A stretch of DNA of 64,000 bases from contig NZ_FXYF01000018.1 in assembly GCF_900184945.1 (NCBI RefSeq), positions 1 through 64,000 of the forward strand, given 5' to 3'. The translations under genes were made by a program, and so were the position numbers. A model generated the notes under the pieces. The model saw nothing but the letters and a program-made list of their open reading frames with translations, had not been told where the DNA came from and ran no database searches. The DNA is from Antarctobacter aquimaris (GTDB lineage: Bacteria; Pseudomonadota; Alphaproteobacteria; Rhodobacterales; Rhodobacteraceae). Shown piece after piece: positions 1,844 to 24,405 of the stretch (position 1 is the first letter of the stretch; each line of letters opens with the position of its first letter).

Positions 1844-3406
1844 CTATCCCAGGGCCGCGATCACGGCCTCTGTCCTTGTCACCAGGGACACGTTCTGCAA
1901 CGCGTAGTCGATGCTGGCCCTGTGCCAGTCGGCGTTCATCGTCGAACAGCCGTCTTCCGGGATCACCATGACATAGCCCTTGTCGGCCCCGGTCCGCGCG
2001 GTGTGCTCGATCGACATGTTGGTCCAGGCGCCGGTCTCGATCAGGATGTCGCGGCCCTCGGCCTTGAGGATGGTTTCCAGGCTTGTCCCCTCCCAGGCCG
2101 ACATGCGCATCTTTTCGACCACGTGATCGCCCTCCTGCACCTCGCAGCCGGGGGCCGGGGCCGCGCCCCAGGTGCCGCGCACCAGCGCATTGTTGTCGAT
2201 CACCCCCTCGAACAGCGGCGCATTGAGCGTCAGCCCCCTTGCGCCCGGCGGCACGACGAAATGCACGTGGATCACCGGGATGCCCAGCTCGCGGCAGCGC
2301 CGCGCAAGGCGGGCGACGTTTTCCAGCGCGTTCTGGTCGCGGCAATGCTGCGGCGAGCCGGAGTCGGCAAAGGCGCCGCCCTCCATCACCACGTCGTTCT
2401 GCATGTCCTGGATGATCAGCGCGCAGCGCGCAGGATCGAGGCGCAGCACCTCTTCGCCCTTGGACCCGGCCGAACGGGCGGCCGGCGGCCGCGCCCGCAT
2501 GAAGGGCTCATTGCGGGGGCCCACCTTGACCGGGACCGCGTAGACCGAGGTCGAGGCGCAGACATAGAGCGTGCGCCGATCCTCGCCGCCCCAGTGCAGG
2601 TTGGCGGGCAGTTCCGGGATCGCCACCTTGCCGATCAGCTTGCCCGCCGGGCTGTAGACCCAGAGCCCGCCCGGCGCCGTGACCCAGACATTGCCCTCGG
2701 CATCACATTTCATCCCGTCCGGCACGCCCGGCCTCAGGCTGTCCTTGATGCCGGAGGCAAAGATGCGACCGTTGGACAGCCGGCCGTCCCTGCCCACGTC
2801 GAAGACCCGGATGTTCACCTGTTCGGTATCGTTGATGTAGAGCAGCGACTCGTCGGGCGAAAAGCACAGCCCGTTCGGCATGGTGAAAAGGTAGCGGTCG
2901 ACGACCAGCTGCGGTTCGGCCCCCGGCTGGTGGCCGGGGGGCAGGCGAAAGACCCCCTGCCAACCGAGCTGCCGGGGCCGTTCGACCCCGTAATGCGGCA
3001 TCCGCCCGTACCAGGGATCGGTGAACCAGACCGATCCGTCGGATTTCACGCAGATGTCGTTGGGCGAATTCAGCTCGCGCCCCTGGAAATGGCTGGCCAG
3101 AACCTCGCGCCGCCCGTCCGGCGAAAACCGCGTCACGGAAGATGTGGCATGTTCGCAGACCAGCAGGTTCAGCTGCGCGTCATAGGTCATGCCGTTGCCC
3201 TTGTGCGACGGGCGCAGCACCTCGCGCACGCCCGCCCGGTCAAGCCTGCGGCGCACGTCGCCCGGCATGTCGGAGAACAGCAGGTAATGGTCGGCCGGGT
3301 GCCAGATCGGGCCTTCGGTGAAGATGAACCCCGAACCCGCCTGCCGGACGGGCGCGTGTTCGTCGATCAGGCGGCGAAAGGCGGGATCGAGGGCTTCGTG
3401 CGCCAT
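1844..3406 (-). CDS. fusion: SMP-30/gluconolactonase-like domain plus isochorismatase-like hydrolase domain
   Basis: A 520-residue protein with two enzyme domains. Residues about 15-295 form an SMP-30/gluconolactonase beta-propeller; the usual metal ligands are visible as E31 (FTEGPIW), N116 (SPNDIC) and D230 (VPDGM). Residues about 320-520 form an isochorismatase-type cysteine-hydrolase fold with D334 (IIQDMQND) and K432 (VEKMRMSAW). At the position of the catalytic cysteine the sequence is WTNMSIEHTA, so a serine (S465) stands where Cys is expected. A lactone or cyclic ester and an amide/carbamoyl group are the plausible substrates, but the Ser makes the second activity uncertain. It is the last gene of the long minus-strand operon and begins 10 bases after the upstream hydrolase ends. 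The start is the ATG at 3406; sequence further upstream overlaps the neighbour. Confidence 0.85.
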   Translation of the reverse strand: MAHEALDPAFRRLIDEHAPVRQAGSGFIFTEGPIWHPADHYLLFSDMPGDVRRRLDRAGVREVLRPSHKGNGMTYDAQLNLLVCEHATSSVTRFSPDGRREVLASHFQGRELNSPNDICVKSDGSVWFTDPWYGRMPHYGVERPRQLGWQGVFRLPPGHQPGAEPQLVVDRYLFTMPNGLCFSPDESLLYINDTEQVNIRVFDVGRDGRLSNGRIFASGIKDSLRPGVPDGMKCDAEGNVWVTAPGGLWVYSPAGKLIGKVAIPELPANLHWGGEDRRTLYVCASTSVYAVPVKVGPRNEPFMRARPPAARSAGSKGEEVLRLDPARCALIIQDMQNDVVMEGGAFADSGSPQHCRDQNALENVARLARRCRELGIPVIHVHFVVPPGARGLTLNAPLFEGVIDNNALVRGTWGAAPAPGCEVQEGDHVVEKMRMSAWEGTSLETILKAEGRDILIETGAWTNMSIEHTARTGADKGYVMVIPEDGCSTMNADWHRASIDYALQNVSLVTRTEAVIAALG

Positions 3407-3416
3407 CGTCGCGCCC

Positions 3417-4268
3417 TCAGGCCGGGAACCAGTCGCGTCGCGGGACGGACTGGCTGACAGGACCGGGCACCACCATGTCGAGCCGTCCCACGACCTGCCC
3501 GCGGTCGATCTTGGCCGGCTTGTCATGGATCGGCAGCAGGAATTTCGACGTGCCGTACATCAGCTTGCGGATCGCGCCCTTTTCGCCGCGCTTCGATCCG
3601 CCGTGGTTGCCGGTGACCTGGTATTCCTCGGGACCGAAGCTGCGCATCGGATTGATGATCTGGTCGTTGAAATCGTAGATCACGTCGCCGCAGATCGTCG
3701 CGCGCCCCTCCGCGGTCTCCACGTGCACGTTCATCGACCCTTCCGTATGCGCCCCTGCCGCCTCGATAAAGACGCCGGGCATCAGCTCGATCTCGCCGGT
3801 GATCTCCAGATCCTCGAGCCGCAGCGCGCCGGGATGGTGCAGGCGTTCGATCAGGTGGATGATGTCGGGCTTGGGGTATTGCGGATGCATCAGCCCCGAG
3901 ACCGAGTATTCCAGCTCGCGCCGGTTGATGACCACGGTGGTGTTCATCGGGAAATGGTCGTCCTTGCCGGCGTGGTCGATATGCAGGTGGGTGTGCAACA
4001 CGTAGCGCACATCGCCCGGCTTGACCCCGTGATTGGCCAGTTGGCGCTCGATCATGTTCTCATGGAATTGCAGGCCGCGCATCCCGAGCGTTTCCATGAT
4101 GGCGTTGTCGCGGTAGCCGGTGTCCACCACGATGGGATATCGCCCGCCGAGGATGAGAAAGCCGTAGACCGGCACCCGCCGCACCCGTCCGCAATCGCGG
4201 CCGAGCACCAGAAACGAGCTTTCCAGCTCGATATCGCCGTAGTCGAGTATCCTGATTTCCAGGGCCAT
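3417..4268 (-). CDS. metallo-beta-lactamase-fold hydrolase, AHL-lactonase-like
   Basis: A 283-residue MBL-fold enzyme. The zinc motif HTHLHIDHAG lies at residues 92-101, followed by AGAHTEGSM (third His), CGDVIYD (bridging Asp) and LPIHDKPA (last His). The layout matches the N-acyl-homoserine-lactone lactonase branch, whose members open lactone rings. In this operon it more likely acts on a pathway lactone than on a quorum signal; that is inference. It lies 12 bases downstream of the amidohydrolase gene and 10 bases before the SMP-30 fusion, so the three hydrolases are probably co-translated. Confidence 0.85.
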   Translation of the reverse strand: MALEIRILDYGDIELESSFLVLGRDCGRVRRVPVYGFLILGGRYPIVVDTGYRDNAIMETLGMRGLQFHENMIERQLANHGVKPGDVRYVLHTHLHIDHAGKDDHFPMNTTVVINRRELEYSVSGLMHPQYPKPDIIHLIERLHHPGALRLEDLEITGEIELMPGVFIEAAGAHTEGSMNVHVETAEGRATICGDVIYDFNDQIINPMRSFGPEEYQVTGNHGGSKRGEKGAIRKLMYGTSKFLLPIHDKPAKIDRGQVVGRLDMVVPGPVSQSVPRRDWFPA

Positions 4269-4280
4269 CCCCGTTCCTCC

Positions 4281-5165
4281 CTAGTTCAGCCGGTAGACCC
4301 GGCATGCGGTATCGTGGAAAATCATCGTCTGTTCGCCGTCCGACAGGCCCCCGGCCGCCTGCCGGTGCACCTCCAGAAGCGTCGCGTAATCGGTCCAGAG
4401 CTTTTCGATCGGGAAATTCGACCCCCAGAGGCAGCGACCCGCGCCGAACAGCGCCACCGTCTCGGAGGTGAGCCAGGCGATATGCGCCGGATCGCAGCGG
4501 TGCAGGAAGGTGCCGAAGCCCGACAGCTTGGCAAAGACATTCGGCCGCCGCGCGAGATCGGTCATGGCGCTGCGCCATGCCGCGCGGCCCTCGTCGGACA
4601 GATCCTCCAGCATCCCGGCGTGTTGCAGGACGAAACTCACCCTGGGGCAGGCTTCGGCCAGCGCGGCGGCACCCGCCATCTGCCCGTCAAAGACCTGCAG
4701 GTCGAAGGCCAGCCCGTAGTCCGCCAGCCGCGCCACGTTGCGCTGCACGGTCGCGTCAGAGCACAGGTCAGGCGACGCAGCGAACCGGTACAGCGGATTC
4801 TCGTGCCAGTGAAACTGCTGCCGGATGCCGCGCAGGCGGGGAAACCGCATGAGCCGGTCCAGCGCGGGGCGCACGTCCGGCACCGTCATGTCGGCATAGG
4901 CGACGATGCCATGCGGCCAGCCGGTCCTTGATGCCAGCGTCTCCAGCCAGTCCACCTCGGCCTCGGCCCGATCAGTGGGCCAGTTGGCCTGCACATAGAC
5001 GGCCTTTTCCACACCTGTCCCGGCGCGGTCGTCCAGGTATTCCTCGACCGGGTAATCCCGCCGGATCGGCTCGTAAGGGCCAAAGATCCGCGGCTGCATC
5101 GGCCCCGAAAGCCAGGGCAGGTCCGCCTGCCGCCAGACATGGAAATGCGCGTCAACCACCCTCAT
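4281..5165 (-). CDS. amidohydrolase family protein (TIM-barrel metal hydrolase)
   Basis: A 294-residue protein beginning MRVVDAHFHVWRQADLPW. The DAHFHVW at residues 5-11 is the HxH metal motif of the amidohydrolase superfamily; GIRQQFHWHENP, SFVLQHAGM and LWGSNFP are typical of the branch containing 2-pyrone-4,6-dicarboxylate lactonase and L-fuconolactonase. These enzymes hydrolyse lactones or cyclic amides, or decarboxylate. The ATG at 5165 overlaps the TGA of the VWA gene (ATGA), which fixes the start and indicates translational coupling. The substrate is not predictable. Confidence 0.85.
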   Translation of the reverse strand: MRVVDAHFHVWRQADLPWLSGPMQPRIFGPYEPIRRDYPVEEYLDDRAGTGVEKAVYVQANWPTDRAEAEVDWLETLASRTGWPHGIVAYADMTVPDVRPALDRLMRFPRLRGIRQQFHWHENPLYRFAASPDLCSDATVQRNVARLADYGLAFDLQVFDGQMAGAAALAEACPRVSFVLQHAGMLEDLSDEGRAAWRSAMTDLARRPNVFAKLSGFGTFLHRCDPAHIAWLTSETVALFGAGRCLWGSNFPIEKLWTDYATLLEVHRQAAGGLSDGEQTMIFHDTACRVYRLN

Positions 5166-6259
5166 CGCCGCGCCCCCTTGGAGAAGTGCAGGATCTCGCC
5201 CGCGATCGTGCCGGGGTCGGATCCGTCGCCCAGCCGGTCGAGCAGGGGCAGGATCGCTGTCATCGCGCCAGTTTCGGGCCGGTAGGCCGGATAGGCGGCC
5301 AGCGGCGAAAGCCACAGCACGGACCATGCCAACCCGTGCAGCCGCTGCATCGCGGCCACCAGCGCCTCTGGCCCGCCCCGCTCCAACCCGTCCGACACGA
5401 CGATGACCAGCGCACCGCGGGCATGGGAGGCAAAGCGCGGCACGGAAAGGAAGACCGCCAGCGCCTCGCCCAGCCGCGTGCCGCCGTCCCAGTCGGCCAC
5501 AAGCCCCGAGGCCAGCACCAACGCCTGCTCCGGGCTGCGGTGCCTCAGCGCCCGCGTGACGCGCGTCAGGCGCGTGCCAAGGGTAAAGGCCTCGACCCGC
5601 TCGCCGCCCTGCACCAGGGCATGCGCCAGCCGCAAGGCGCCGTCAGTGCCCGCCTTCATGCTGCCCGACACGTCGACCAGCATCAGCACCCGGCGTTGCC
5701 GCGTGCGGCGGCGGCGCGTGGGCAGCTGCGCCAGTTCCCCATCGCGGCGCAGCATCTCGCGGAAGGCGCGGCGCGCATCGGCCAGCCGCCCCTTGCCCGA
5801 TGCGGTGCGCCGCGAGCGGCGGCGCGGCAGCGCGCCCGGCAAGGCACGGGCAAAGGCGCGCAGCATCGCCGCCTCGTCGCCCGGACCCAGGTCGCGGCGG
5901 AACAGGCGTTCGGCGGCGGTCGCATCGGCGCCCGAAGGCTCTTCCTCGTCGGCTTCGGGCATCAGGTCGAAATCGCCCGCGTCATAGCTGCGCGGCATCT
6001 CCTCTGGTTCACCCGGTGCGGGCGCGGCAAGGGTTTGGCCCAGGAAGACCCGGTTGAAGATCGCGTCGAACTGCGCCGCCCGCTCTGGCCCCGGCCCGTA
6101 GACCGCATGCGCCGCGCGCCGGATATCGCTGATCGAGCGCGGCCCCAGCAGGCCGGTTGCGGCGATGAAACTCTCGGTCTGCTCGGGCGAGGCAGGCAGG
6201 CCGGCCGCGCGCAGCATCTGCGGAAAGGCGAGGAAGGGATCGAGCGCGCGGGGGATCAT
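5162..6259 (-). CDS. VWA-domain protein, CoxE-like
   Basis: A 365-residue protein. The C-terminal half has a von Willebrand A domain with the MIDAS motif DVSGS at residues 196-200; the N-terminal half is helical with an acidic stretch near 100-110 (PEADEEEPSG). This is the CoxE architecture. In carbon monoxide dehydrogenase clusters CoxE works with the MoxR ATPase CoxD to mature the molybdenum/copper site. Here it directly follows a MoxR gene with an ATGA overlap, so the pair probably matures the molybdenum hydroxylase encoded just upstream. No CO dehydrogenase active-site motif is present in that hydroxylase, so cox symbols are not assigned. Confidence 0.85.
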   Translation of the reverse strand: MIPRALDPFLAFPQMLRAAGLPASPEQTESFIAATGLLGPRSISDIRRAAHAVYGPGPERAAQFDAIFNRVFLGQTLAAPAPGEPEEMPRSYDAGDFDLMPEADEEEPSGADATAAERLFRRDLGPGDEAAMLRAFARALPGALPRRRSRRTASGKGRLADARRAFREMLRRDGELAQLPTRRRRTRQRRVLMLVDVSGSMKAGTDGALRLAHALVQGGERVEAFTLGTRLTRVTRALRHRSPEQALVLASGLVADWDGGTRLGEALAVFLSVPRFASHARGALVIVVSDGLERGGPEALVAAMQRLHGLAWSVLWLSPLAAYPAYRPETGAMTAILPLLDRLGDGSDPGTIAGEILHFSKGARR

Positions 6260-7137
6260 GCCGCCGCCCCCGCCAGCAGCGCCTCGATCCGAGGTGCGAT
6301 GAACTCGATATCGTCCTGGTCCTTGAGCGCGACCCCGATGGCGCGCAGGAAGGCGCTTGGCCAGGGCGCGCCGCCCTCGTGCAGCAGGGTCGCGGCCTCG
6401 GCCCATTCGACGGTTTCGGCAACGCCCGGCGGCTTGGCCAGCGGTTCGGCCCGCAGCGCGCCCACCGCGCGCACCACCCGCTCGGCGGTGTCGCGGGCGA
6501 CGGTGGAGGACCGCATCATCACGATCTCCGCCTCCAGCGCGGGTTCGGGGTAGCCGATCCAGTGATAGACGCAGCGCCGCCTGAGGGCTTCGTGCAATTC
6601 CCGCGTGCGGTTGGAAGTCAGCACGACCACCGGCGGCATCTCGGCCCGGACGGTGCCGCGTTCCGGGATGGAGACGGTGAAATCGGACAGGAATTCCAGC
6701 AGGAATGCCTCGAATTCATGGTCGGCGCGGTCGATCTCGTCGATCAGCAGCACCCGGTCTTGCGGCGCTTCGAGCGCTTGCAGGATCGGTCGGGCGATCA
6801 GGTATTCATCGGCATAGAGGTTGACGTAGGCATCCCCGGCCTGCCGGATCGCCAGCATCTGGCGCGGGAAGTTCCATTCGTACATCGCCGCCGCTGCGTC
6901 GATCCCCTCGTAGCATTGCAGCCGCACAAGGTCGCGCCCGAGGACCGAGGCGACGGCCTTGGCGGCCTCGGTCTTGCCCACGCCCGGCGCGCCTTCGAGC
7001 AGCAGCGGCTTGCCCAGCGCCAGCGCGAGATAGACGGCGGTCGAAAGCCCCTCGTCCGCGATGTACTGGGCATCGCGCAGCGACCGGGCCAGAGGCCCGG
7101 GCCCGTCGATGCCCTGTATGACGCGGCGCACCACCAT
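6256..7137 (-). CDS. MoxR-family AAA+ ATPase, CoxD-like
   Basis: A 293-residue AAA+ protein. Walker A is GAPGVGKT (residues 49-56), Walker B VLLIDEID (129-136), and VLTSNRTRELHEALRRRC is the sensor/arginine-finger region. MoxR ATPases act as chaperones with VWA partners; the CoxD branch functions in metal-centre maturation of molybdenum hydroxylases. It overlaps the VWA gene by ATGA. It is separated by 94 bases from the hydroxylase subunit upstream, the largest gap inside this operon; that gap holds two palindromes. Confidence 0.9.
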   Translation of the reverse strand: MVVRRVIQGIDGPGPLARSLRDAQYIADEGLSTAVYLALALGKPLLLEGAPGVGKTEAAKAVASVLGRDLVRLQCYEGIDAAAAMYEWNFPRQMLAIRQAGDAYVNLYADEYLIARPILQALEAPQDRVLLIDEIDRADHEFEAFLLEFLSDFTVSIPERGTVRAEMPPVVVLTSNRTRELHEALRRRCVYHWIGYPEPALEAEIVMMRSSTVARDTAERVVRAVGALRAEPLAKPPGVAETVEWAEAATLLHEGGAPWPSAFLRAIGVALKDQDDIEFIAPRIEALLAGAAA

Positions 7138-7169
7138 CAGGCGCCCCCCCGCCGGCCCGGCGCGGCAAG

Positions 7170-7211: not shown

Positions 7212-7231
7212 TCCCGCGCCCCGCACCGCCG

Positions 7232-8254
7232 TCACAGCTGCCTCCGCGGTTTCGCGCCGCCCTGCGCCTTCAGCGCGCGGAGCACCTTTTCGGGTGTCAC
7301 GGGCAGATCGTCGATGCGGATGCCCACGGCGTCGTAGACCGCGTTGACCACCGCCGGCAGCACCGGGTTGGCGCACATCTCGCCCGGGCCCTTGCCGCCG
7401 TAGGGGCCGTCCTCGGCGGGGCGTTCCAGCACAGAGATGTGATGCGGCGCCAGATCTCCGGGGCCGGGCATGAGGTAGCCGTTGAAATCGACCGCGCCGT
7501 GGTCGCGGCTGGGGTACTGCGGCTCGGTCGTCTCCCAGGCCGCGTGGCTCATGCCCATCCAGGCGCCGCCGCGCAACTGCTGCTCCACCAACCGCGGGTT
7601 GAGCGCGCGGCCGACCTCGTAGGCCGATTGCATGTCGGTCACGGCAACGTCGCCGGTCTCGTCGTCCACCTCGACCTCGACCAGCATGGCGGCATGGGCA
7701 AAGGTGGTGACGGGCGACATTTCTCCGGTCTCGGGGTCCACCTCCGACAGCGGGATCAGGAAGATGCCGCGCCCGGCGATGGTTCGGCCCTGCTTGAACT
7801 GCGCCGCCTGCGCCGCCGCCATGGTGGTGATCGAACGCGACGGCGCGCCCTTGACGTGGATATTGCCCTTGCCGTCCGTCACCAGATCGGCGGCGTCCAC
7901 CTCCAGCTCTTCCGCCGCCGCCTCCAACATCACCTGACGCGCTTCCTCGGAGGCACGGATCACCGCATTGCCCATCCGGTGCGTCCCGCGCGAGGCGAAG
8001 GAGCCCATGTCATGCGGGCCGGTATCGCTGTCGGCGGTGTCGACATAGACGTCCTCGATCGGCACGCCCAGCGTCTCGGCGGCGATCTGGCGGGTGACGG
8101 ATTTCATCCCCTGGCCCAGGTCGATGGCCGACAGCGCCACGGTGAACTTGCCGTCCGGGTTGGAATGCACCAGCGCCTGGGACGGGTCGCCGCCCAGGTT
8201 CATGCCGATGGGGTAGTTGATCGCCGCAAAGCCGCGGCCGCGATGCAGGGCCAT
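7232..8254 (-). CDS. molybdenum hydroxylase large subunit, C-terminal half as a separate protein
   Basis: A 340-residue protein starting MALHRGRGFAAINYPIGM. It matches the second half of xanthine-dehydrogenase-family molybdopterin subunits: LSAIDLGQGM, the cofactor loop MGSFASRGTHRMGN and the catalytic glutamate in GGKGPGEMCANP near the C-terminus. It lacks the N-terminal cofactor region, which is the preceding gene. The start is well supported: AGGAGG lies 5 bases before the ATG and the ATG overlaps the TGA of the upstream half. The two proteins presumably assemble into one active subunit. The substrate is unknown; the family hydroxylates purines, N-heterocycles, aldehydes or CO, and the CO-specific AYxCSFR motif is absent. 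Confidence 0.85.
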   Translation of the reverse strand: MALHRGRGFAAINYPIGMNLGGDPSQALVHSNPDGKFTVALSAIDLGQGMKSVTRQIAAETLGVPIEDVYVDTADSDTGPHDMGSFASRGTHRMGNAVIRASEEARQVMLEAAAEELEVDAADLVTDGKGNIHVKGAPSRSITTMAAAQAAQFKQGRTIAGRGIFLIPLSEVDPETGEMSPVTTFAHAAMLVEVEVDDETGDVAVTDMQSAYEVGRALNPRLVEQQLRGGAWMGMSHAAWETTEPQYPSRDHGAVDFNGYLMPGPGDLAPHHISVLERPAEDGPYGGKGPGEMCANPVLPAVVNAVYDAVGIRIDDLPVTPEKVLRALKAQGGAKPRRQL

Positions 8255-9951: not shown

Positions 9952-10424
9952 GCGCGCATCCTCCCCTCGGCCACCGCGAGGATCGCGGCGATGATCGGCT
10001 CGTACCCGGTGCAACGGCACAGGTTGCCGCTGATCGCCTCGATCACCTCTTCGCGCGAGGGGCGCGGGTTGCGGTCGAGCAGCGCGCGGGCCGACATCAA
10101 CATCCCCGGCGTACAGTAGCCGCATTGCGCGGCGAAATGCTCCATGAAGGACTCCTGCAACGGGTCGAGCGCGGGGCCTTGCGCCAGTCCCGCCGCGGTG
10201 CGCACCTCGCGGCCCTCGACGCTCTCGGCCAGCGTCAGGCAGGCGAGGTGCGTCGCGCCGTCAATGGTGACCGTGCAGGCGCCGCAGGCCCCCTGCCCGC
10301 AGCCGTATTTCGGCGAAAGATCCCCGACACCGCGCCGCAGGAAGTCGAGCAGGTTCTGCCCGTCGTCGGCAAAGGCCGCGCGCGGGCTGCCGTTCAGGGT
10401 GAAATTGACCGGTTTCTTGCCCAT
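9948..10424 (-). CDS. molybdenum hydroxylase small subunit, 2Fe-2S
   Basis: A 158-residue electron-transfer subunit. The plant-type ferredoxin cluster motif YGCGQGACGACTV (near residues 40-52) and the second cluster motifs QCGYCTPGM and NLCRCTGYEP are all intact, giving the eight cysteines for two 2Fe-2S clusters. It passes electrons between the molybdenum centre and the FAD subunit. It overlaps the FAD subunit upstream by one base and the large-subunit gene downstream by four, so the subunits are translationally coupled. Length and motifs are normal for CoxS/XdhC-type small subunits. Confidence 0.95.
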   Translation of the reverse strand: MGKKPVNFTLNGSPRAAFADDGQNLLDFLRRGVGDLSPKYGCGQGACGACTVTIDGATHLACLTLAESVEGREVRTAAGLAQGPALDPLQESFMEHFAAQCGYCTPGMLMSARALLDRNPRPSREEVIEAISGNLCRCTGYEPIIAAILAVAEGRMRA

Positions 10425-11670: not shown

Positions 11671-11672
11671 GG

Positions 11673-14999: not shown

Positions 15000-15023
15000 G
15001 ATCTCTCCTCCCCCGTTGCGCGG

Positions 15024-15851: not shown

Positions 15852-18040
15852 CTTCGTGCCTCTCTCTTGCGGGCCGGACGGCCGCCATGCAGCTCGCGAA
15901 AGGCGGCGACGATGGCGGCGGCGAAGGCCGGGGCGTTGATGTTGTGCGGCAGGCGGATCAGCTGGCGTTGCGCGGTCTGGCGGACGGTATCCTCGAGCGC
16001 GGTGAACAGCGAATGCCGCGCCTGCGGATCGTCGAAGGGCTGGCCCGGCGCATCCAGCGCCGAAACGCCGCCTTCGGGCAGGAAAAAGCGCACCAGACCT
16101 TCCATCTCGTTCAGCCGTGCGCCGATCCAGCGGCCCATCTCGGCGGATTCCGACGGCGTGGTCCGCATCAGCGTGACCTGCGGGTTGTGTTCGTAGAACA
16201 GGCGGTCGCGGTATCGTTCGGGGACGGTGTCGGGCGGGCCGAAATTGACCATGTCCAGCGCCCCGACCGAGCCGATATAGGGGATCCGCTTGCGGATGAC
16301 GGCGCCAAAGCGGTCCTCGGTCGCCGGGAAAACCCCGCCGAACAGCATGTCGCAGATCTCGGTCGTGGTGATGTCGATGACCGCCGGTATCTTGCCGGAA
16401 TCGATCAGTTTTTCCATCGACTGGCCGCCGATCCCCGTGGCGTGGAACACCAGGCAGTCGTAGTCCGCGTCGAGCGCGTCGGTGATCTGGCTGACGCAGG
16501 GCGTCGTCACGCCGAACATCGTCAGGCCGATGGCGGGCTTGCCCGCCTGCCGTGCCGGGGCGGCCTTGCGGGCCGCGACCATGCCCACCATCGCCTGCGC
16601 GGCGTTGGCCAGCACCTCTTCGGTGATGGCGTTCAGGCCCTGCACGTCGGCCACCGAATGCATCATCATGATGTCGGCCGGCCCCACGTATTTCGACACC
16701 TCGCCCGAGGCGACGGTCGAGACGATCAACTTGGGCACCCCCACGGGCAGCGCGCGCATCGCCGGCGCCACGATGGCCGTGCCGCCCGATCCGCCCGCCG
16801 AAAGGATGCCGGCGATGCCCTCCTGCCGGGTGATCCAGCGCTGAAAAGCCAGCGTCATCCCCGCCACCGATTTTCCCCGGTCGCCGGTAAAGACCCCTGC
16901 GGCGCCGCGTGGATGAAACGCGGCGATCTGGTGCGCCGGGATCTCGGCGCCGGAGTGCCCGCCGCCGGTCGACAGGTCCACCATCCGCACCGGCAGGCCG
17001 GCCGCGCGGATCAGGTCGCGCATGTAGCGCAGTTCTGGCCCCTTCGTGTCCAGCGTCCCGGCCACGAGGATGACCTGCGCGCCGGACGCGGCAAGCGGCC
17101 GTATCTCGGCCTGCATCGTCTCGAAGGCCGGCGCACCGACCGTCACGACCCGCGCCGCGCGTTCGATCTGCGCCACCGGCACGGGCTGCGACCAGCGGGT
17201 CGGAGGTTTCGGGTTGGACAGGTAGATCTTGGCCGCCTGTGGGGCGGCGGGCCGGTCGCCGTCCGGCGTGTCCTGGCCGGACGGCGCCACGGTGGGCGTG
17301 TCGTCGTGGGCGTGACGCCCGACGCCCAAAAGCCGCTGTTGCAGGTCGCGGTCCGCCGCCAGTTCGCGGGCCGGCACGATCCGGTTGACCTGTCCGTTGA
17401 CCATGATCGCCACGCGATCGGCCACCGCGCAGGCCACGCCGATGTTCTGCTCGATCACGACGACGTCCATGTCGCCTTCCTCGGCCAGCCGCAGCAGCAT
17501 GTCTTCGACCTGCGAGACGATGACCGGCGCCAGACCCTCGGTCGGCTCGTCCATGACCAGGAGACGCGGATTGGCCAGCAGGGCCCGCGAGATGGCAAGC
17601 ATCTGCTGTTCGCCGCCCGAAAGCTGGCCGCCGCCGTTCGACTTGCGCTCGGCAAGGCGGGGGAAGGTCGAATAGATGCGCTCGATGCTCCAGGCGCCGC
17701 CCTTGCGCTCGACCATCTTGAGGTGTTCGTCCACCGTGAGCGACCGCCACAGCCTGCGCCCCTGAGGCACGTAACCGATGCCGATGCGCGAGATCTCGGC
17801 GGGGCTGCGACCGGCCAGCGCCTGGCCGTGAAAGCTGATCGACCCGGACGCAACCGGCACAAGGCCCATGATTGCCTTGCACAGCGTGGTCTTGCCCATG
17901 CCGTTGCGGCCGACCACCGACAGGATGCCCGAGGGCAGCGCCAGGTTCACGCCCTGCAACGCATGGGACGCGCCGTAATAGACGTTCAGGCCCCGGATAT
18001 CCAGCGCCGGGGCGCCTTTCCGCTCGCCGCGCTCAGCCAT
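15848..18040 (-). CDS. fusion: LivF-type ABC ATPase plus Tm-1-like (UPF0261) domain
   Basis: A 730-residue protein joining two normally separate families. Residues about 12-245 are a branched-chain-amino-acid-type ABC ATPase: Walker [10 protein letters not shown], signature LSGGEQQM, Walker [12 protein letters not shown], and the [12 protein letters not shown]-loop of LivF. After a Pro/Asp-rich linker (about 245-300) comes a Tm-1-like domain: [65 protein letters not shown] and [18 protein letters not shown]. The plant Tm-1 protein uses this fold to bind ATP and block a viral replicase; bacterial roles are unclear. The fusion ties the importer ATPase to cytoplasmic handling of the cargo. The start overlaps the LivG stop by 8 bases. 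Confidence 0.9.
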
Positions 18041-18830
18041 GGCCGCCCCCGAGATATAGCTCCTGCACCTCGGCGTCGCTCTCGATCTCCTCGGGCGTGC
18101 CCTCCTTGAACACCTTGCCGTTGTGCATCATCGTCACGCTTTCGGCGACGCGCAGGGCGACGTCCATGTCGTGCTCGATGATGATGTAGCCGATGTGCGA
18201 CGGCAGGCTGGTCAGGATCGTCACCAGTTCGCCCCGCTCGGTCGGCGAGAGGCCCGCCGCCGGTTCGTCGAACAGGATGAAGCGCGGCGCGCCCGCCAAG
18301 GCCAGCGCGATCTCGAGCTGGCGCTGCTGGCCGTAGCTGAGATTGGCGACCGCCGTGCCGCTGGCCTCGGTCAGGTGCACTGCGTCGATCAGTTCCTGGG
18401 TGCGGGCGCGCAGGGCGTCCTTTGCATCCGGCCGCAGGAACGAAAACCGCCCGCGCGACACGCCCCGACAGGCGAGATAGACATTGTCCGAAACGGTCAG
18501 CCCGCCGAACAGCAGGCTGATCTGGTAGGTCCGGCGCAGGCCGCGGCGGATGCGTTCATAGGCCGGAAAGGCGGTCACGTCCTCGCCGAACAGCCGGATC
18601 GTGCCCGAGGTGGGCAGGAAATCCCCGGTGACGCAGTTGAACAGCGTCGTCTTGCCCGCCCCGTTGGAGCCGAGCACGGCGCGCCGTTCGCCCGAGCCGA
18701 CGGTCAGGGTCACATCCTGGATGGCCGCCAGCGCGCCGAACATCTTGGTCACGCCGCGCAGTTCCAGCGCATTGCCGGAACTGACCGACCCGATCCGGTC
18801 CGCGGCGCTGGAGGTCTCGACCAGGGTCAT
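18033..18830 (-). CDS. livG: LivG-type ABC transporter ATP-binding protein
   Basis: A 265-residue ATPase of the branched-chain amino acid/amide importer type. Walker A is [16 protein letters not shown], signature [17 protein letters not shown] (LSYGQ as in LivG), Walker [14 protein letters not shown], then the switch histidine in IIIEHDMDV. It partners the LivF half of the downstream fusion. It starts at the ATG at 18830, overlapping the LivM stop by ATGA. The symbol reflects family; the cargo is probably not leucine but the compound degraded by this operon. Confidence 0.92.
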
Positions 18831-19882
18831 TTGCCGCCTCCCCTGAGCGGATCGCGGGCCTTGCGCCGCCGCGCGCGCCAGCGTTCCCACAGGCCAAGCA
18901 CACCGTCGGGCGAGAAGAAGACCACGGCGAGAAAACCGATGCCGATCAATAGTTTGAACCGCTCGCTCGACAGGCCGAAGGCGGTCAGGACATCCGGCGA
19001 AAAGGTCCGCAGAAGGACATAGATCAGCGCGCCGATGAACGGCCCGATGGGCCGCGAGATGCCCCCCACGACCGCGATGACAAGAACGTCGATGACCGCC
19101 GGAATGCCGGCCGTGCCCGGCGAGATCTGCGCATTCTGCCAGACCAGCAAGATGCCCCCGACAGCGGCAATCACGCTGGCCACGGTATAGGCCGCGACCC
19201 GGTGTGCCGTCACGTTGAAGCCGAGCGCCGCCATGCGCCGGGGATTGTCCCGCACGCCCTGAAGCGCCAGCCCGAAAGGCGCGCGCGAGAGGTAGACCAC
19301 CACCGCGTAGCAGATCGCCGCCGCCCCCAGCGAGAGATAGAAGAAGGGCATGGGCTGACGCCAGTCCACGCCGAACAGCTGTGGCGGCACGACGAGGTTG
19401 AAGCCGGAATAGCCGTTGAAGATCTCGTAGTTCTGCCGCGTGAAGTAGAAGAAGGCCGCCGCGATGGCCAGCGTGATCATGATCGTGTAGATGCCCTCGG
19501 TCCGGACGGCGAGCGCGCCGACGATGGTGCCGAAGATCGCGGCGATCACGATGGCGACCGGGATGTAGACCCACCAGGGCAGGCCCATGCTGATCGCCGA
19601 CACGCCCGACGTGCCGAAGATCGCGACCATGTAGCCCGCCATGGCCGCGACCGACATCTGGATCAGGCTGACCATGCCGCCGTAGCCGGCGAGAAACATC
19701 AGGCTCAGCGCGATGATCCCCAGGATGAAGGTCCAGCCCATCACCTGGAACAGGATGAAATCGTTGGCCCAGGCGGGCATGGTCAGCAGGATCAGGATCA
19801 CCGCCCACCACGCCGCCGGCACCCGATCGATCCACATCGGCTGGAGGGCGGCGGGTTTGCGGCGCTGGTCGATGAGAGCCAT
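18827..19882 (-). CDS. livM: LivM-type ABC transporter permease
   Basis: A 351-residue polytopic membrane protein with about nine hydrophobic segments and the LivM coupling motif around RAPFGLALQGVRDNPRRMAALGFN (approx. residues 215-240). The C-terminus is cytoplasmic and basic (ERWRARRRKARDP). It forms the translocation pore with the LivH-type permease encoded immediately upstream, whose stop lies directly before this start with no gap, and couples to LivG/LivF. Length and topology are normal. Confidence 0.93.
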   Translation of the reverse strand: MALIDQRRKPAALQPMWIDRVPAAWWAVILILLTMPAWANDFILFQVMGWTFILGIIALSLMFLAGYGGMVSLIQMSVAAMAGYMVAIFGTSGVSAISMGLPWWVYIPVAIVIAAIFGTIVGALAVRTEGIYTIMITLAIAAAFFYFTRQNYEIFNGYSGFNLVVPPQLFGVDWRQPMPFFYLSLGAAAICYAVVVYLSRAPFGLALQGVRDNPRRMAALGFNVTAHRVAAYTVASVIAAVGGILLVWQNAQISPGTAGIPAVIDVLVIAVVGGISRPIGPFIGALIYVLLRTFSPDVLTAFGLSSERFKLLIGIGFLAVVFFSPDGVLGLWERWRARRRKARDPLRGGGK

Positions 19883-20896
19883 TTACCGCGACGCCCCCAG
19901 CAGCCCCTGCGGGCGAAAGGCCAGGACGGCCGCCATGATGAGGAAGGTGAAGACCACCGAGTAGGTCGGCGCGTAGACCAGGCCCAACTGCTCGGACAGG
20001 CCGATCACCAGCGCGCCGATGGCGGCGCCCGGGATGGAGCCCATGCCGCCGACGATCACGACGACAAGGCTGGCCAGCAGGAAACGCGTGTCCTCGCCCG
20101 GCGACAGCGACTGGAACGTGCCGCCGACGATGCCGCCGATGCCGGCCAGCCCCGCGCCGAAGGCAAAGACCGCGAGAAAGACGTAGTGGATACGCACGCC
20201 CGAGGCGGCCAGCATCTCGCGGTCGTCGACGCCCGCGCGGATCAGCATCCCCAGGCGGGTGCGGTTGAGGATAAGCCACATGCCGACACCGATGACGATG
20301 GCTGCGAACAGGATCGCCATGCGCACGGCGGGGTAGCGAAGATAGGCGATCTCGCCCGTGTCGCGCACCGACGAGATCACCGGCAGCGTCATCGGCCCGG
20401 ACAGCCAGTCGGGCGACAGGATCGTGTAGGACTGCCCGCCCCAGATCCACAGCAGGATATCCGCGATCACCACCGACAGCCCGATCGTGACCATGGTTTG
20501 GCGCAGCTCTTCTCCCTCCATCCGGCGGAACACCTGGTTTTGCAGGACCAGGCCAAGGATCGCGACAGCGACAAAGACGACCGGAAAGGCCAGCAGCCAG
20601 GATCCCGTCGCCTCGGACACCTCGAACCCCAGATAACCGCCAAGCAGGTAGAGCGACCCGTGCGCGAGGTTCACGTTGCGCATCAGCCCGAAGATCAGCG
20701 TGAAGCCCGCCGCCACGAGAAAATAGAGCGCCCCGAGCGTGACGCCGCCGAAGATCGCGTTCAGAAAGACACGCTTGCGGCCGAGGACTTCTTCGAGCGC
20801 GTCCGACCAGGGGGCAAAGACAAGCCACAGAAAGACCGCGACGACGATCGCGATGATCAGTGCCCAGACCGGATGACGCCTGACGAAATCCTGCAC
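19883..20896 (-). CDS. livH: LivH-type ABC transporter permease
   Basis: A 337-residue permease. After one N-terminal hydrophobic segment (VWALIIAIVVAVFLWLVFAP) comes the canonical LivH region: GVTLGALYFLVAAGFTLIFGLMRNVNLAHGSLY and a C-terminal VVVIVGGMGSIPGAAIGALVIGL. The extra N-terminal segment with the soluble loop SDALEEVLGRKR makes it somewhat longer than typical LivH proteins (about 290-310). It is the first gene of the ABC run and lies 120 bases after the AraC regulator gene on the same strand, so a promoter may lie in between. Confidence 0.93.
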   Translation of the reverse strand: MQDFVRRHPVWALIIAIVVAVFLWLVFAPWSDALEEVLGRKRVFLNAIFGGVTLGALYFLVAAGFTLIFGLMRNVNLAHGSLYLLGGYLGFEVSEATGSWLLAFPVVFVAVAILGLVLQNQVFRRMEGEELRQTMVTIGLSVVIADILLWIWGGQSYTILSPDWLSGPMTLPVISSVRDTGEIAYLRYPAVRMAILFAAIVIGVGMWLILNRTRLGMLIRAGVDDREMLAASGVRIHYVFLAVFAFGAGLAGIGGIVGGTFQSLSPGEDTRFLLASLVVVIVGGMGSIPGAAIGALVIGLSEQLGLVYAPTYSVVFTFLIMAAVLAFRPQGLLGASR

Positions 20897-21016
20897 GCTG
20901 CCCTACTCCCGAGTCCCGGCCTGCTGCCGGAACGGACCGTGGAGAGCCTAGCGCGATGCCGCGCCCGTACAGATACCCGACAGTCTCATCCTTGTGCCCC
21001 TGATCGGGAAACCCGG
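20897..21016 (-). promoter_or_regulatory. gap before livH: candidate promoter/regulator target
   Basis: The 120-base gap between the AraC-type regulator stop and livH is the largest non-coding stretch upstream of the 19-kb operon. It contains a small hairpin, CCGGC-CTGCT-GCCGG at 20916-20930. I see no convincing -35/-10 pair; the assignment is from position only. Confidence 0.35.
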
Positions 21017-21847
21017 TCAGGACAGGTGAACGGACCGGCGATAGACCGAGGGTGGCACGACACCATTGGCGATGAAGAAGCGCGAAAAGCTCGCCTGGCT
21101 CGAAAACCCGAGATCGAAACCGATATCGGCCACGGCCTCCTCCGTCGCGGCCAGCCGGTCGATCGCGCGCTCCATCCGGAGCGCGTTGGCATAGAGGTTG
21201 GGTGTCAGGCCGACCTGCGTGCGGAACAGCTTGAAGAAATGCGGGCGCGACAGGCCAACCTCGCGCGCGACGCAATCCAGCGCGACCGCTTCGCCGACGT
21301 TTTCCTGCATGAGCTTCAGCGCCTTGCGTATACGAAAGTCGCGCCGGGTAAAGTCGGGGCCGGTGAACGCGCTGCCGCGCATCGTCCATTGCCACGACTG
21401 GTCAAAGGACATCTGCGTCAGCGCGCAGAGCTTGTCCTCGAGCAGGTAGTCCTCGCGGTCGGGGTCCAGCATCGTCCGGGCCGTGGCGATGACAAGACGG
21501 TCGATCGGATCCGTCACCTCGACGCCGACCCGCCCGAAGGACAGCGAGGCCGAGGCACGCCGCGCGGCATCCAGGAACCACGCCGGACGGATGTAGAGAA
21601 CCAGCGCAAGCGTCGGTTCCGCCGTGGTCACCGGATTGTAGTAATGCGCCTGCCACGGGCTGACGGCGACGGCCTGCCCGGGCGACAGCGGCCAGGCCTT
21701 TCCGTTCACGACGACCTGACCGGGCGGTCCCTGCACGTGATAGATCAGATGCCCTTCGCGATGCCCGTGCGGCACCATGCGGCGGTCCATCGAATACAGG
21801 CAGACGCGACCGAAATCTCCGTGAAACACGGACAATGACCCACTCAT
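21017..21847 (-). CDS. AraC-family transcriptional regulator
   Basis: A 276-residue regulator. The N-terminal half is a cupin-like sensor (MVPHGHREGHLIYHVQG, GQAVAVSPWQAHYYNP). The C-terminal 100 residues carry two helix-turn-helix motifs: LDCVAREVGLSRPHFFKLFRTQVG and VADIGFDLGFSSQASFSRFF, the AraC/XylS signature. The start at 21847 has a purine-rich GGGGGGGAG just upstream; an upstream in-frame ATG is less well placed. Its location between the dehydrogenase gene and the ABC/hydroxylase operon suggests it activates this regulon in response to the substrate. Confidence 0.88.
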   Translation of the reverse strand: MSGSLSVFHGDFGRVCLYSMDRRMVPHGHREGHLIYHVQGPPGQVVVNGKAWPLSPGQAVAVSPWQAHYYNPVTTAEPTLALVLYIRPAWFLDAARRASASLSFGRVGVEVTDPIDRLVIATARTMLDPDREDYLLEDKLCALTQMSFDQSWQWTMRGSAFTGPDFTRRDFRIRKALKLMQENVGEAVALDCVAREVGLSRPHFFKLFRTQVGLTPNLYANALRMERAIDRLAATEEAVADIGFDLGFSSQASFSRFFIANGVVPPSVYRRSVHLS

Positions 21848-21967
21848 CGTCTCCCCCCCGATGCGTGCAATATGAAGGATCGGGGGTTGGCCCCCGTTAT
21901 GGATATGTCCCACGTTAAGGCCAGTCGGCCCGATCTCCAAAGGGATTTGTCGCGTCTCATCGGCCCC

Positions 21968-23008
21968 TCACAACGCGGCCGCCATCATGGCTTCGTAGTC
22001 GCGGGGCGTGGCATGACGCGGATTGGTCTGGTTCACCGGGTCAGCGGCAGCCCTCCGGGCCGCCCTTGGCACCGCCGACATGGCCACGCCTGCCGCCGAC
22101 AGGCGGACCGGCAATCCCACCGCCTCGGCCAGCCCGCGAATCGTGTCCGCCAGGTCCGCCTGCCGCCCGAGACCGAGCACCGTGCGAATGACCGGCAACC
22201 GGTCTTGCACCACCGGCGCGTTGAAGGCCAGGACCTCGGGCAGCAGGGCGGCGTGGAGCGCGCCGTGGCGCACCGGCACCTCCCGTTCGAGCCCGCGCGA
22301 GGCGGCCTCGATTCCGCCGAACCCCTTCTGCTCGGCCAGACCCCCGCTCAGCGCTGCCGCGAGAAGATCGCGGCGCGCGTCGATGTCGCGCCCGTCCTGC
22401 ACAGCGGCGGCGAGGCTGCGCATCGCGCGGCGCAATCCCTCGAGGGCGATGCCATCGGCGGGCGGATTGAAGGCCGTGCTCAGAAATGCCTCAAGGCAAT
22501 GGATCAGCGCATCCATTCCCGCGGCCGCCGTCTCGGCCGGCCCGCGCGCAACCATGAGCGTCGCGTCGCAGAAGATCGCCGCCGGGATCAGCGAGGGCCG
22601 CGTCGCATGGTGGGCAAACGCGACGCCCAAAGGCCCCAGCCCGACGCCGTCGGTCGCCGTGGGCACCGCGATCACCGGCGTGCCCGATCTGCCCAGGACC
22701 CGCGCCAGATCGAGCGTCGCAGCGCCGCCGAGGCCGATGATCCCGTCGCACCCCGTCTCGGCGAACAGCGCGGCCGCCGCGCGCAGGTCCTCATCCACCG
22801 GCAGATGCGGCCGCATTTCAAAGATCACCCCGGATGTGGAGAGCGGCAGCGCATCCTCGAGCCTCTCTCGTTCCTCACCCTCGGCGAGGGCGCTGTCGCA
22901 GACGATCATCGGTCGCCGGACGGCAAGGCGCGACAACTCCTCCAACAGCGCGTCCTCGAGCACCCGGTCGGCGAAATGGATTCTCGTCAGGAACGTGATG
23001 AGAGACAT
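21968..23008 (-). CDS. iron-containing alcohol dehydrogenase family, maleylacetate-reductase-like
   Basis: A 346-residue oxidoreductase. The nucleotide-binding region DGIIGLGGAATLDLARVLG and PVIAVPTATDGVGLGPLGV fits the maleylacetate reductase/Fe-ADH superfamily. D and H of the metal motif are visible in GMDALIHCLEAF. In the second metal region the usual H-A-x-x-H is replaced by GIEAASRGLEREVPVRHGALH, so one canonical His ligand seems missing and the metal site may be altered. Maleylacetate reductases act at the end of aromatic catabolism, which suits this cluster. Longer upstream frames lack family sequence; the ATG at 23008 begins MSLITFLTRIHFADRV. Confidence 0.78.
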   Translation of the reverse strand: MSLITFLTRIHFADRVLEDALLEELSRLAVRRPMIVCDSALAEGEERERLEDALPLSTSGVIFEMRPHLPVDEDLRAAAALFAETGCDGIIGLGGAATLDLARVLGRSGTPVIAVPTATDGVGLGPLGVAFAHHATRPSLIPAAIFCDATLMVARGPAETAAAGMDALIHCLEAFLSTAFNPPADGIALEGLRRAMRSLAAAVQDGRDIDARRDLLAAALSGGLAEQKGFGGIEAASRGLEREVPVRHGALHAALLPEVLAFNAPVVQDRLPVIRTVLGLGRQADLADTIRGLAEAVGLPVRLSAAGVAMSAVPRAARRAAADPVNQTNPRHATPRDYEAMMAAAL

Positions 23009-23098
23009 GGCGGAAGCCCCCCGCAGAACACGCCCGCACCGCTGGCCGGAAGACACACACTTGTCTGTGTAGGCCAGGAGGAGCCCACACAGATGAAA

Positions 23099-23124
23099 CC
23101 GGGGCCGCTCATGCGCGGCCCCGG
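23099..23124 (-). terminator. GC-rich hairpin after the binding-protein gene
   Basis: A perfect 10-base stem (CCGGGGCCGC / GCGGCCCCGG) with a 6-base loop begins 18 bases after the binding-protein stop on the minus strand and is followed by TTTCAT. It probably attenuates transcription so the abundant binding protein outnumbers the downstream enzymes, a common design in ABC operons. Confidence 0.65.
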
Positions 23125-23142
23125 CCCGTTCTGGTACGCGGA

Positions 23143-24405
23143 TCAGCCCTTGCCGCCGAGAGCGGCGCAATCCGGCGTTTCGCGCGACGGCAGACCCATG
23201 GCACGGAACTCGTCCGGGGTCATGCCGAGCGTCTGGTTCACGTTCTCGACCTTGCCGACCATCACGTTCTTCAGCCCGCCTTCGCCGTTGTCCTGCACTT
23301 CGTTGATGAACACCGTGCCGGTGGCCTGCCTGTTCTCGTTGAGCGAGACCGGGCCCAGGGGCGTGTCCAGCGGATCGTCCGCCAGCGCCGCGCGGAACTT
23401 GGCCTGGCCGTCGGACAGGTCGCCGTCGATCTCGTTCAGGGCGTCGATGGCCGCCAGTGCGGCGATGTAGTAGCCCACGCCGAACAGCGACGGCGACGGG
23501 AAGCGTTCGCTTTCCGGGAAGGCCTCCTGGTAGGCCGCGACATAGGCCTGCCATGCCGGATCGGGGTTGTCTTCGGCCAGCGCGCCCGAGGTGGGCGTGC
23601 CGACAAGCGCGTCCTTGGCCCGGCCCTTGGAGGTCAGCACCGTCTGGTCGGCCATGATGGTGCCGCCGATCAGGTTGGTCTCGGCGCCGGCCTGCGCGTA
23701 CTGGTTGAGGAAGTTGATGGCATCCGTGCCGCCGACCCCGAGATAGATGGCGTCCACGTCATCGGGCAGCGCAGCGATCACGCCGCCGAAGTCGGACGAT
23801 CCGAGCGGCACCCAGAAACGGTCCACGATCTCGCCGCCCGCGCGGCAGAAGTCGACCGCAAAGCCGAGGAAGTTCGTGTAGCCAAAGGAATAGTCTGCGG
23901 CCACCGTGGCGACGCGTTTCCAGCCCTTCTCGTTCACGACATAGGTGCCTAGGCCCGCGCCCCATTGTGCACCGTCGAGGTTGAACCGGAAGAAGTTCTC
24001 GGCCGGATCGACCCATGTCGTCTCGAGCGCGCCCGAGATGCCGTTGATCACCGTATGGTTGGGGATCGTCTTGGCATAGTCGCGCATGGCGATGCCTTCC
24101 GAGCCGGACAGCGGCCCGAGGATGAAGTCCACGCCGTCCTGCTCGATCAGTTTGCGCGCCTGCCGGACGGTGGTGTCCGGCGTGGTGTCGGTGGGCGCGA
24201 CGACGATCTCGATCGGCCGCCCGCCGGCGACCCCTCCGGCCTGCTTGACGGCCAGTTCGACGTTGCGGACGCCATCCGCGCCACCGGCCGCAAATGCACC
24301 CTCGAGCGCGACAAGCACACCGATCTTGATGGCTTCCTGGGCCATGGCGCCTGCAGGAAGCAGAAGCGCCATCGCCGAAACCGAGGCGATCATTGCCTTC
24401 TTCAT
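23143..24405 (-). CDS. Liv-type ABC transporter substrate-binding protein
   Basis: A 420-residue periplasmic protein with a Sec signal peptide (MKKAMIASVSAMALLLPAGAMAQ) followed by IKIGVLVALEGAFAAGG. This is the type I periplasmic fold used by branched-chain amino acid/amide/aromatic binding proteins (Peripla_BP_6); WVDPAENFFRFNLDG and VATVAADYSFGY are typical. GAGGAGACTG precedes the ATG. Family relatives bind amino acids, amides, urea or aromatic acids; with the downstream enzymes an aromatic or heterocyclic ligand is plausible. It appears to be the 5'-most gene of the regulon. Confidence 0.92.
   Translation of the reverse strand: MKKAMIASVSAMALLLPAGAMAQEAIKIGVLVALEGAFAAGGADGVRNVELAVKQAGGVAGGRPIEIVVAPTDTTPDTTVRQARKLIEQDGVDFILGPLSGSEGIAMRDYAKTIPNHTVINGISGALETTWVDPAENFFRFNLDGAQWGAGLGTYVVNEKGWKRVATVAADYSFGYTNFLGFAVDFCRAGGEIVDRFWVPLGSSDFGGVIAALPDDVDAIYLGVGGTDAINFLNQYAQAGAETNLIGGTIMADQTVLTSKGRAKDALVGTPTSGALAEDNPDPAWQAYVAAYQEAFPESERFPSPSLFGVGYYIAALAAIDALNEIDGDLSDGQAKFRAALADDPLDTPLGPVSLNENRQATGTVFINEVQDNGEGGLKNVMVGKVENVNQTLGMTPDEFRAMGLPSRETPDCAALGGKG

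Follow-up and report, generated by a model that had tools for sequence, protein, structure and literature searches.

Parts of the locus studied here have counterparts in described systems. In the nicotinate dehydrogenase NdhFSLM of Eubacterium barkeri, NdhL and NdhM are known as two molybdenum (Mo)-binding subunits (PMC10331938). In aerobic carbon monoxide (CO) dehydrogenase, CoxD and CoxE help to mature the Mo site (PMC4240915). Acetovanillone breakdown in Rhodococcus begins with phosphorylation by HpeHI, followed by carboxylation by HpeCBA and dephosphorylation by HpeD, and the acvABCDEF genes of Sphingobium SYK-6 are homologous and syntenous to hpeHICBAD (PMC9618137). Plants carry a fused protein, Tm-1, made of a UPF0261 domain and a TIM-barrel, known as a tomato virus-resistance gene and the subject of an evolutionary study (PMC5028733). 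Here we describe a stretch of 64,000 nucleotides from Antarctobacter aquimaris (contig NZ_FXYF01000018.1, positions 1 to 64,000; hereafter the window), in which 20 coding sequences, all co-directional on the minus strand from 24405 to 1844 (starts as chosen in the analysis), form a genuine conserved and mobile, apparently catabolic unit, hereafter the cassette. Relative to the known parts, what is novel is an importer ATPase fused to a UPF0261 domain, and a split Mo-binding subunit with a tethered end peptide. Every gene named in an initial annotation of this DNA is present on the minus strand, as judged from Pfam and NCBIfam profile matches (Table 1).

A scan with the PEP-hydrolase-like protein gave at least 542 relatives, and the loci of the 80 best were used to analyze conservation of the cassette; 51 of these loci have full flanks, and genes were counted per locus by tblastn. 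The Mo-hydroxylase gene module (Mo module) was found in 41 of the 51, and the order and strand of every detected gene were identical in all 41. Each of them has LivH, LivM, LivG, LivF, Tm-1, PEP-hydrolase, flotillin, both SRPBCC genes, the four Mo genes and MoxR, while LivK was found in 40, AraC in 39 and VWA in 36 (the flank often stops at VWA). For 20 of these 41 genomes, extra DNA was fetched further downstream: MoxR, VWA, the SMP-30/gluconolactonase (SGL) domain and the isochorismatase-like domain were present in all 20, the metallo-beta-lactamase-fold (MBL) protein in 19, and the amidohydrolase in 18. Synteny spans more than 20 alphaproteobacterial genera, with many carriers among soil and sea bacteria. 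Since these loci were picked by similarity, a test on 295 unselected genomes of the same family, from 295 genera, carries more weight. Orthologues of the C-terminal half (C-half) of the Mo-binding large subunit (E up to 1e-90) were found in 20 genomes, the full-length fused ATPase in 25, and both in 19. The fused ATPase is present in 19/20 genomes with the Mo C-half versus 6/275 without it (Fisher p = 9e-24), and both genes lie on one contig in 16 of the 19 co-occurring genomes.

The cassette is patchy in distribution, yet travels as a block. When the fusion proteins are placed in a tree, sequences from Hoeflea and Roseomonas fall among those of Rhodobacterales, a placement as would be expected for horizontal transfer. 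Loci with the Mo module lie together on one side of a branch with moderate support (88/98); at least one loss occurred there, and this is not a clean single change, because locus L018, on the same side, has no Mo genes. The proposal of the initial annotation, a dedicated unit of uptake, oxidation and hydrolysis whose genes are kept together, is thus supported both by synteny and by co-occurrence in unselected genomes. A literature search on the gene set, with most subscription journals outside its coverage, gave no characterised cluster with this combination, in agreement with the initial annotation.

The set of genes for a Liv-type (HAAT) ATP-binding cassette (ABC) importer is complete, with a binding protein, two permeases and two ATPases. 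NCBIfam models of branched-chain amino acid Liv proteins all score below cut-off (LivK 52.6/477, LivH 81.7/379, LivG 177.5/362 and LivF 157.2/441 bits). LivF and UPF0261 are encoded in a single open frame in 72/72 loci having both. Across 43 aligned fusions the Walker A, signature and Walker B motifs are invariant, as is an RW pair in the linker, and the PT preceding it is nearly so. Both UPF0261 profiles match above cut-off (PF06792, 194.8 bits; PF23189, 300.9 bits). In an AlphaFold model of the fusion (mean predicted local distance difference test, pLDDT, 82.1; predicted template modelling score, pTM, 0.56), the domains are mostly confident, and residues 240-320 between them are not. Top structural matches of the UPF0261 part are tomato Tm-1 (3wry; Z 35.1, 395 aligned residues, root-mean-square deviation 2.4) and 9mpy (Z 31.7, 388 aligned residues, deviation 7.3), the latter being, by its title, Saro_1862, a UPF0261 domain protein of Novosphingobium aromaticivorans with acetovanillone bound. 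The cassette shares its UPF0261 domain with both; what sets it apart is that this domain is joined to the ATPase of an ABC importer, with the TIM barrel encoded on its own.

Plasmid loci of Sphingomonas bisphenolicum AO1, Pseudomonas putida YC-AE1 and Novosphingobium humi (L119-L121) bear on the role of this domain. They carry a Tm-1-like gene, followed by genes for a biotin carboxyl carrier protein, a biotin carboxylase, a carboxyltransferase and a HAD-IIA protein, so that the kinase slot of an acv-like series is taken by a relative of UPF0261. In the two of these loci that are annotated, the 19 kb read contain neither another kinase gene nor an annotated importer. HpeHI belongs to a different protein family from UPF0261. 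Judging from this gene position and from the acetovanillone bound by a relative, UPF0261 would most simply carry out the phosphorylation in these plasmid loci, and may be a hydroxy-aromatic kinase. If this is carried over to the cassette, the ATPase subunit of the importer may phosphorylate its cargo, and the LivF::UPF0261 fusion may couple import to phosphorylation. An identity of UPF0261 with AcvA/AcvB of SYK-6 was not supported, the acv genes being homologous to hpeHICBAD according to PMC9618137. A search for Saro_1862 orthologues in 385 genomes of the class at E 1e-90 gave none, and is uninformative as it had no positive control.

An alternative keeps the same catabolic cassette, with UPF0261 as a regulatory sensor that would gate import by binding ATP or the product, and Mo-hydroxylation as the first step. 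Other ABC ATPases, such as MetN and ModC, have fused C-terminal regulatory domains; the poorly ordered linker of the model also speaks for this alternative, as do the nicotinate dehydrogenase subunits as best solved relatives of both Mo halves. UPF0261, however, is also found free-standing beside importers, and in the acv-like loci lacking an annotated importer it is the sole nameable candidate for the first enzyme. Moreover, the ligand in 9mpy is a plant-derived aromatic ketone. We consider a sensor role possible, but on the unlikely side. Going further than the kinase reading, LivF::UPF0261 could be an import-coupled kinase, the ABC counterpart of group translocation by the phosphotransferase system (PTS), sitting in a flotillin-held membrane complex that recruits the split Mo-hydroxylase via its tethered C-terminal peptide; taken as a whole, this picture is speculative and rather improbable.

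Ten of the 51 full-flank loci have no Mo module. Eight of them (L031, L049, L052, L064, L081, L086, L087 and L088) retain LivHMK, LivG, LivF::Tm-1, PEP-hydrolase, flotillin and SRPBCC genes. The other two are L018, where the importer side is present, and L085, with Tm-1 and PEP-hydrolase only. In L081, a zinc-type dehydrogenase domain is joined to the second SRPBCC, and genes for an FAA hydrolase, an alpha/beta hydrolase and an Amidohydro_1 protein come next. In loci such as L049 (3-1505), the PEP_hydrolase domain is fused to a sigma-54-type activator with a Fis helix-turn-helix, in which the barrel may act as a ligand sensor. Tm-1 and PEP-hydrolase genes were also found in distant plasmid regions, in several of them (not in Vibrio casei) beside sugar-, Liv- or BMP-type importers. 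An SRPBCC gene directly follows the pair in 3 of the 7 distant regions read (Azospirillum, Ensifer and Terrarubrum), and in Thermomicrobium roseum the pair is again close to Mo-hydroxylase genes. We read this as processing of the importer's cargo by Tm-1, PEP-hydrolase and, in many cases, SRPBCC, with downstream enzymes that vary. Flotillin length, among the loci listed, is 865-1169 amino acids in six with the Mo module versus 542-784 in 13 without, and the flotillin of L018 has 1160.

Plant abscisic acid receptors are close structural matches of the modelled first SRPBCC protein (Z of about 19-21; identity 16-23% for most matches), and this protein may bind a small molecule. Like these receptors, Tm-1 is a plant protein with bacterial relatives. 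The initial annotation had placed MoxR, VWA and SRPBCC together as partners in maturation of the Mo-enzyme. MoxR and VWA fit a CoxD/CoxE-like maturation; for the SRPBCC pair such a role is less clear, because it stays with Tm-1 and PEP-hydrolase where the Mo-enzyme is missing. A CoxG-like quinone shuttle was not supported for the pair either, as it is kept without the Mo-enzyme and its L081 copy is fused to a dehydrogenase; the Pfam match is PF10604, and CoxG is not among the 50 fold matches listed for the first protein.

The Mo-hydroxylase belongs to the xanthine dehydrogenase family, with 2Fe-2S, FAD and two-part Mo-binding domains encoded together (PF00111/PF01799, PF00941/PF03450, PF01315/PF02738 and PF20256). 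The motif GGKGPGEMC or GAKGPGEMC is present in 58/58 aligned matches, 10 of which are the same genes seen again in extended loci; this GxKGPGEMC-type motif has the Glu of the GxGE motif, which we take to be the catalytic one. The large subunit is split into two genes in all 47 loci with both halves, and most of the junctions have a stop/start plus a ribosome-binding-like sequence, which rules out a sequencing frameshift. Other PF02738 matches of the genome have open frames of 746-1018 codons, versus 668 here. Best solved matches are 3hrd_A (NdhL) for the N-terminal half (N-half) and 3hrd_B (NdhM) for the C-half. As in NdhFSLM (3hrd), the enzyme has four genes with the Mo-binding subunit in two pieces. 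Unlike in NdhFSLM, a hydroxylase of nicotinate at C6, the N-half has a Pro/Ala-rich tail and a conserved end peptide, and the gene set also includes MoxR/VWA, the Liv importer, Tm-1 and flotillin.

This N-half ends, after the Pro/Ala-rich stretch, with a peptide of the RFSSxxGxRRR type. The pattern RF.{2,5}G.R[RK]R was found in 42 of the 47 N-halves, the other five having near variants, and in no other open reading frame of the 80 loci. A Shine-Dalgarno constraint alone behind the RRR end was ruled out, as the peptide is kept in L021, L047, L050 and L071, where the next start lies at a distance of 180, 15, 14 and 585 nt, respectively. By itself L071 is a weak case, because AGG-AGG is retained there; the codons at the RRR end are different ones in L047 and L050. 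In loci without the Mo-enzyme, neither the peptide nor MoxR and VWA (0/10, tblastn) were found. As all three are missing together, MoxR and VWA would be the most economical docking partners of the tail peptide.

The FAD, 2Fe-2S and Mo subunits, together with MoxR (CoxD) and VWA (CoxE), resemble coxMSLDEFG. An aerobic Mo-Cu CO dehydrogenase was nevertheless ruled out: the active-site loop P-[AS]-T-A-M-R-G-F-G (ATAMRGFG here) has no Cys, in 52/52 sequences, at the position we take to be that of the Cys for Cu, and the two halves score 172 and 94 bits with NCBIfam TIGR02416, far under its cut-off of 991 bits. Also unlike in coxMSLDEFG, the large subunit is split, and Pfam names no XdhC-type CoxF among the 20 genes.

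Hydrolases and the iron-type alcohol dehydrogenase-like protein (Fe-ADH) would suit the opening of a ring or lactone to a hydroxy acid, followed by oxidation. The MBL metal motif (HxHxDH) reads HTHLHIDH in 21/21 sequences, and the protein scores 67 bits versus NCBIfam equivalog cut-offs of 375 and 325 (acyl-homoserine lactone lactonase/4-pyridoxolactonase). The amidohydrolase is nearest to lactonases by NCBIfam, below cut-off. Fe-ADH has 4-hydroxybutyrate dehydrogenase as its nearest NCBIfam model (253 bits, cut-off 500), and an aldehyde dehydrogenase gene comes next after it in a Yoonia plasmid and in L028. The Agrobacterium blc/att gamma-butyrolactone operon likewise has an MBL lactonase and an Fe-ADH, and shares an aldehyde dehydrogenase with some relatives of the cassette; the cassette differs by an MBL protein far under the AttM cut-off and by a much larger gene set.

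As to the substrate, the initial annotation had suggested an N-heterocycle or lactone-forming aromatic. The NdhL/NdhM relatives lend indirect support to an N-heterocycle, which is plausible, and the two lactonase-like proteins and SGL fit lactone chemistry; the amidase-like domain lacks its Cys. A complete nicotinate-like path would consist of import, C-H hydroxylation beside N, lactam or lactone hydrolysis and Fe-ADH, with Tm-1, PEP-hydrolase and flotillin as accessory proteins; it would account for the Mo subunit split as in NdhL/NdhM and for the MBL protein related to 4-pyridoxolactonase. Such a path appears unlikely, as Tm-1, PEP-hydrolase, flotillin and SRPBCC form a constant core to which the Mo module is an optional addition, the sole amidase-like domain lacks the catalytic Cys, and none of the 20 genes is named by Pfam as a ring-cleaving dioxygenase. 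Literature searches gave no paper on homarine breakdown genes by title, and none on 3-hydroxypyridine. A non-nutritional role, the import and inactivation of a lactone-type signal or toxin, is very improbable despite several lactonase-like proteins, one of them related to the quorum-quenching AiiA, since NCBIfam quorum-quenching scores are far under cut-off (67/375 and 51/390 bits) and a dedicated binding-protein importer with oxidising enzymes would better suit nutrition.

We thus favour, with a probability of about 0.4, a horizontally moving cassette for the uptake and degradation of one small hydroxylated (hetero)aromatic or enolic acid, with phosphorylation by UPF0261. LivK would capture the substrate and LivHMGF import it. 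At the inner membrane face, the incoming molecule would be phosphorylated on a hydroxyl (or enol) by UPF0261 on LivF, and would thereby be trapped and activated. The PEP-hydrolase-like barrel would then rearrange or cleave the phospho-intermediate, with SRPBCC proteins as ligand holders; its acting next on an enol- or aryl-phosphate is a guess, though chemically coherent. Flotillin would keep the UPF0261, PEP-hydrolase and SRPBCC machinery at the membrane. In this lineage, the Mo-enzyme, matured by MoxR/VWA, would hydroxylate the product with water, the N-half tail peptide docking to MoxR/VWA or to the membrane complex. The amidohydrolase, MBL and SGL proteins would open the lactone formed in this way, and Fe-ADH (in some relatives also aldehyde dehydrogenase) would oxidise the opened product towards central metabolism. 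Gene content, conserved order, the LivF::UPF0261 fusion and the split Mo-hydroxylase with its C-terminal peptide are the firm part of this scheme.

Several points weigh against it. The order of the steps is a guess, and the kinase role of UPF0261 is drawn from genomic position; identity between the domain and 9mpy is only about 32%. For LivK, the solved relatives (4zpj, 4ey3/4eyg/4eyk, 4evq) are distant ones; we take 4ey3, 4eyg, 4eyk and 4evq to bind hydroxy-aromatic acids, in agreement with the scheme but no proof of it. Unlike hpe (Rhodococcus) and acv (SYK-6), the cassette has no biotin carboxylase and no HAD phosphatase (none named by Pfam among the 20 genes), and the acv-like plasmid loci show no PEP_hydrolase gene; the next step must therefore differ from that of acv. 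Fold matches of the first SRPBCC protein are led by PYL receptors and bacterial proteins of unknown role, which says only that small-molecule binding is possible. The isochorismatase-like domain has Ser at the position of Cys in 3kl2 and 3hb7, in 23/23 sequences including that of the window, and is therefore not a standard amidase. In Fe-ADH, one putative metal-ligand His (at what we take to be the ligand positions) is replaced by Glu, and the gene was detected in only 24 of the 41 Mo loci. Of the 20 extended relatives, three gave no match for either the amidohydrolase (two relatives) or MBL (one relative), and in one unselected genome (G085) the fused ATPase is missing although the Mo C-half orthologue is present.

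Coordinates are summarized in Table 1. Junctions between genes are tight, but not mostly ATGA overlaps as first noted: with the chosen starts, 4-nt overlaps occur at 5/19 junctions only, overlaps of any length at 8/19, and spacing is within 25 nt at 15/19. The SGL::isochorismatase gene was reached in 20/20 downstream-extended relatives. Genes past it vary, with an SDR gene next in 4/22 loci (L090, L092, L097 and L110), accompanied in two of these four by an FAA hydrolase. Since neighbourhoods diverge past this gene, the downstream limit of the initial annotation is the usual one; upstream, the view extends at most 1-2 kb beyond LivK.

Table 1. Genes and parts of genes of the cassette, in window coordinates and in order of transcription.
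Feature	Position	Strand	Matches and remarks
LivK-type periplasmic binding protein	23143..24405	-	PF13458 199.6 bits; nearest solved 4zpj, 4ey3/4eyg/4eyk, 4evq
Fe-ADH-like	21968..23008	-	PF25137 98 bits
AraC-family regulator	21017..21847	-	PF12833, PF02311
LivH permease	19883..20896	-	PF02653
LivM permease	18827..19882	-	PF02653
LivG ATPase	18033..18830	-	PF00005
LivF::UPF0261 (Tm-1-like) fusion	15848..18040	-	PF00005, PF06792, PF23189; structure matches 3wry, 9mpy
Parts of the fusion	LivF ~17321-18040; linker ~17081-17320; UPF0261 15848-17080	-	
PEP-hydrolase-like TIM-barrel protein	15024..15851	-	PF09370 432.6 bits; solved match 2p10
Long flotillin, 962 aa	12111..14999	-	PF01145, PF15975
SRPBCC protein 1	11673..12110	-	PF10604; model pLDDT 94.9, helix-grip type fold
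SRPBCC protein 2	11224..11670	-	PF10604
Mo-hydroxylase FAD subunit (CoxM-like)	10424..11227	-	PF00941, PF03450
Mo-hydroxylase 2Fe-2S subunit (CoxS-like)	9948..10424	-	PF00111, PF01799
Mo-hydroxylase large subunit (CoxL-like), N-half	8254..9942	-	PF01315, PF02738; Pro/Ala-rich tail ~8257-8595
Conserved C-terminal peptide of the N-half, RFSSLSGFRRR	8257..8289	-	
Mo-hydroxylase large subunit (CoxL-like), C-half	7232..8254	-	PF20256
MoxR AAA+ ATPase (CoxD/MadB-like)	6256..7137	-	PF00004; NCBIfam MadB 247 bits, cut-off 475
VWA protein (CoxE-like)	5162..6259	-	PF05762 152 bits
Amidohydro_2 (Amidohydrolase_2 family), lactonase-like	4281..5165	-	PF04909; NCBIfam fuconolactonase 108.7 bits, cut-off 400; 4dlf
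MBL lactonase-like protein	3417..4268	-	PF00753; relatives AiiA, 4-pyridoxolactonase
SGL::isochorismatase-like fusion	1844..3406	-	PF08450, PF00857; longer start at 3526 possible

Around the cassette, a match to the candidate defence family PDC-S11 (621-1556, minus strand) adjoins its end, near the contig end. Upstream, at 25237-29590, open reading frames resembling a cytochrome, a multicopper oxidase and TolC were recognized by eye. A stretch of lower GC content starts at about 30 kb and contains the BREX defence genes BrxC, PglX, PglZ and BrxL (47898-60171, plus strand); a recombinase-like open reading frame (30775-32328, by eye) and a tRNA-Thr (62401-62476) lie in or near this stretch.

UPF0261 (Tm-1) and PF09370 are widespread families, and we found no settled function for either. 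The cassette links both to one importer, one Mo-enzyme and one hydrolase set in more than 20 genera, so that a single ligand screen could reveal the roles of the two families. If the fused ATPase does phosphorylate its cargo, ABC importers would gain a trapping mechanism, whereas trapping of cargo by phosphorylation is, to our knowledge, reported only from the PTS. The split Mo-subunit with its tethered peptide, for its part, offers a handle on client choice by MoxR/VWA pairs.

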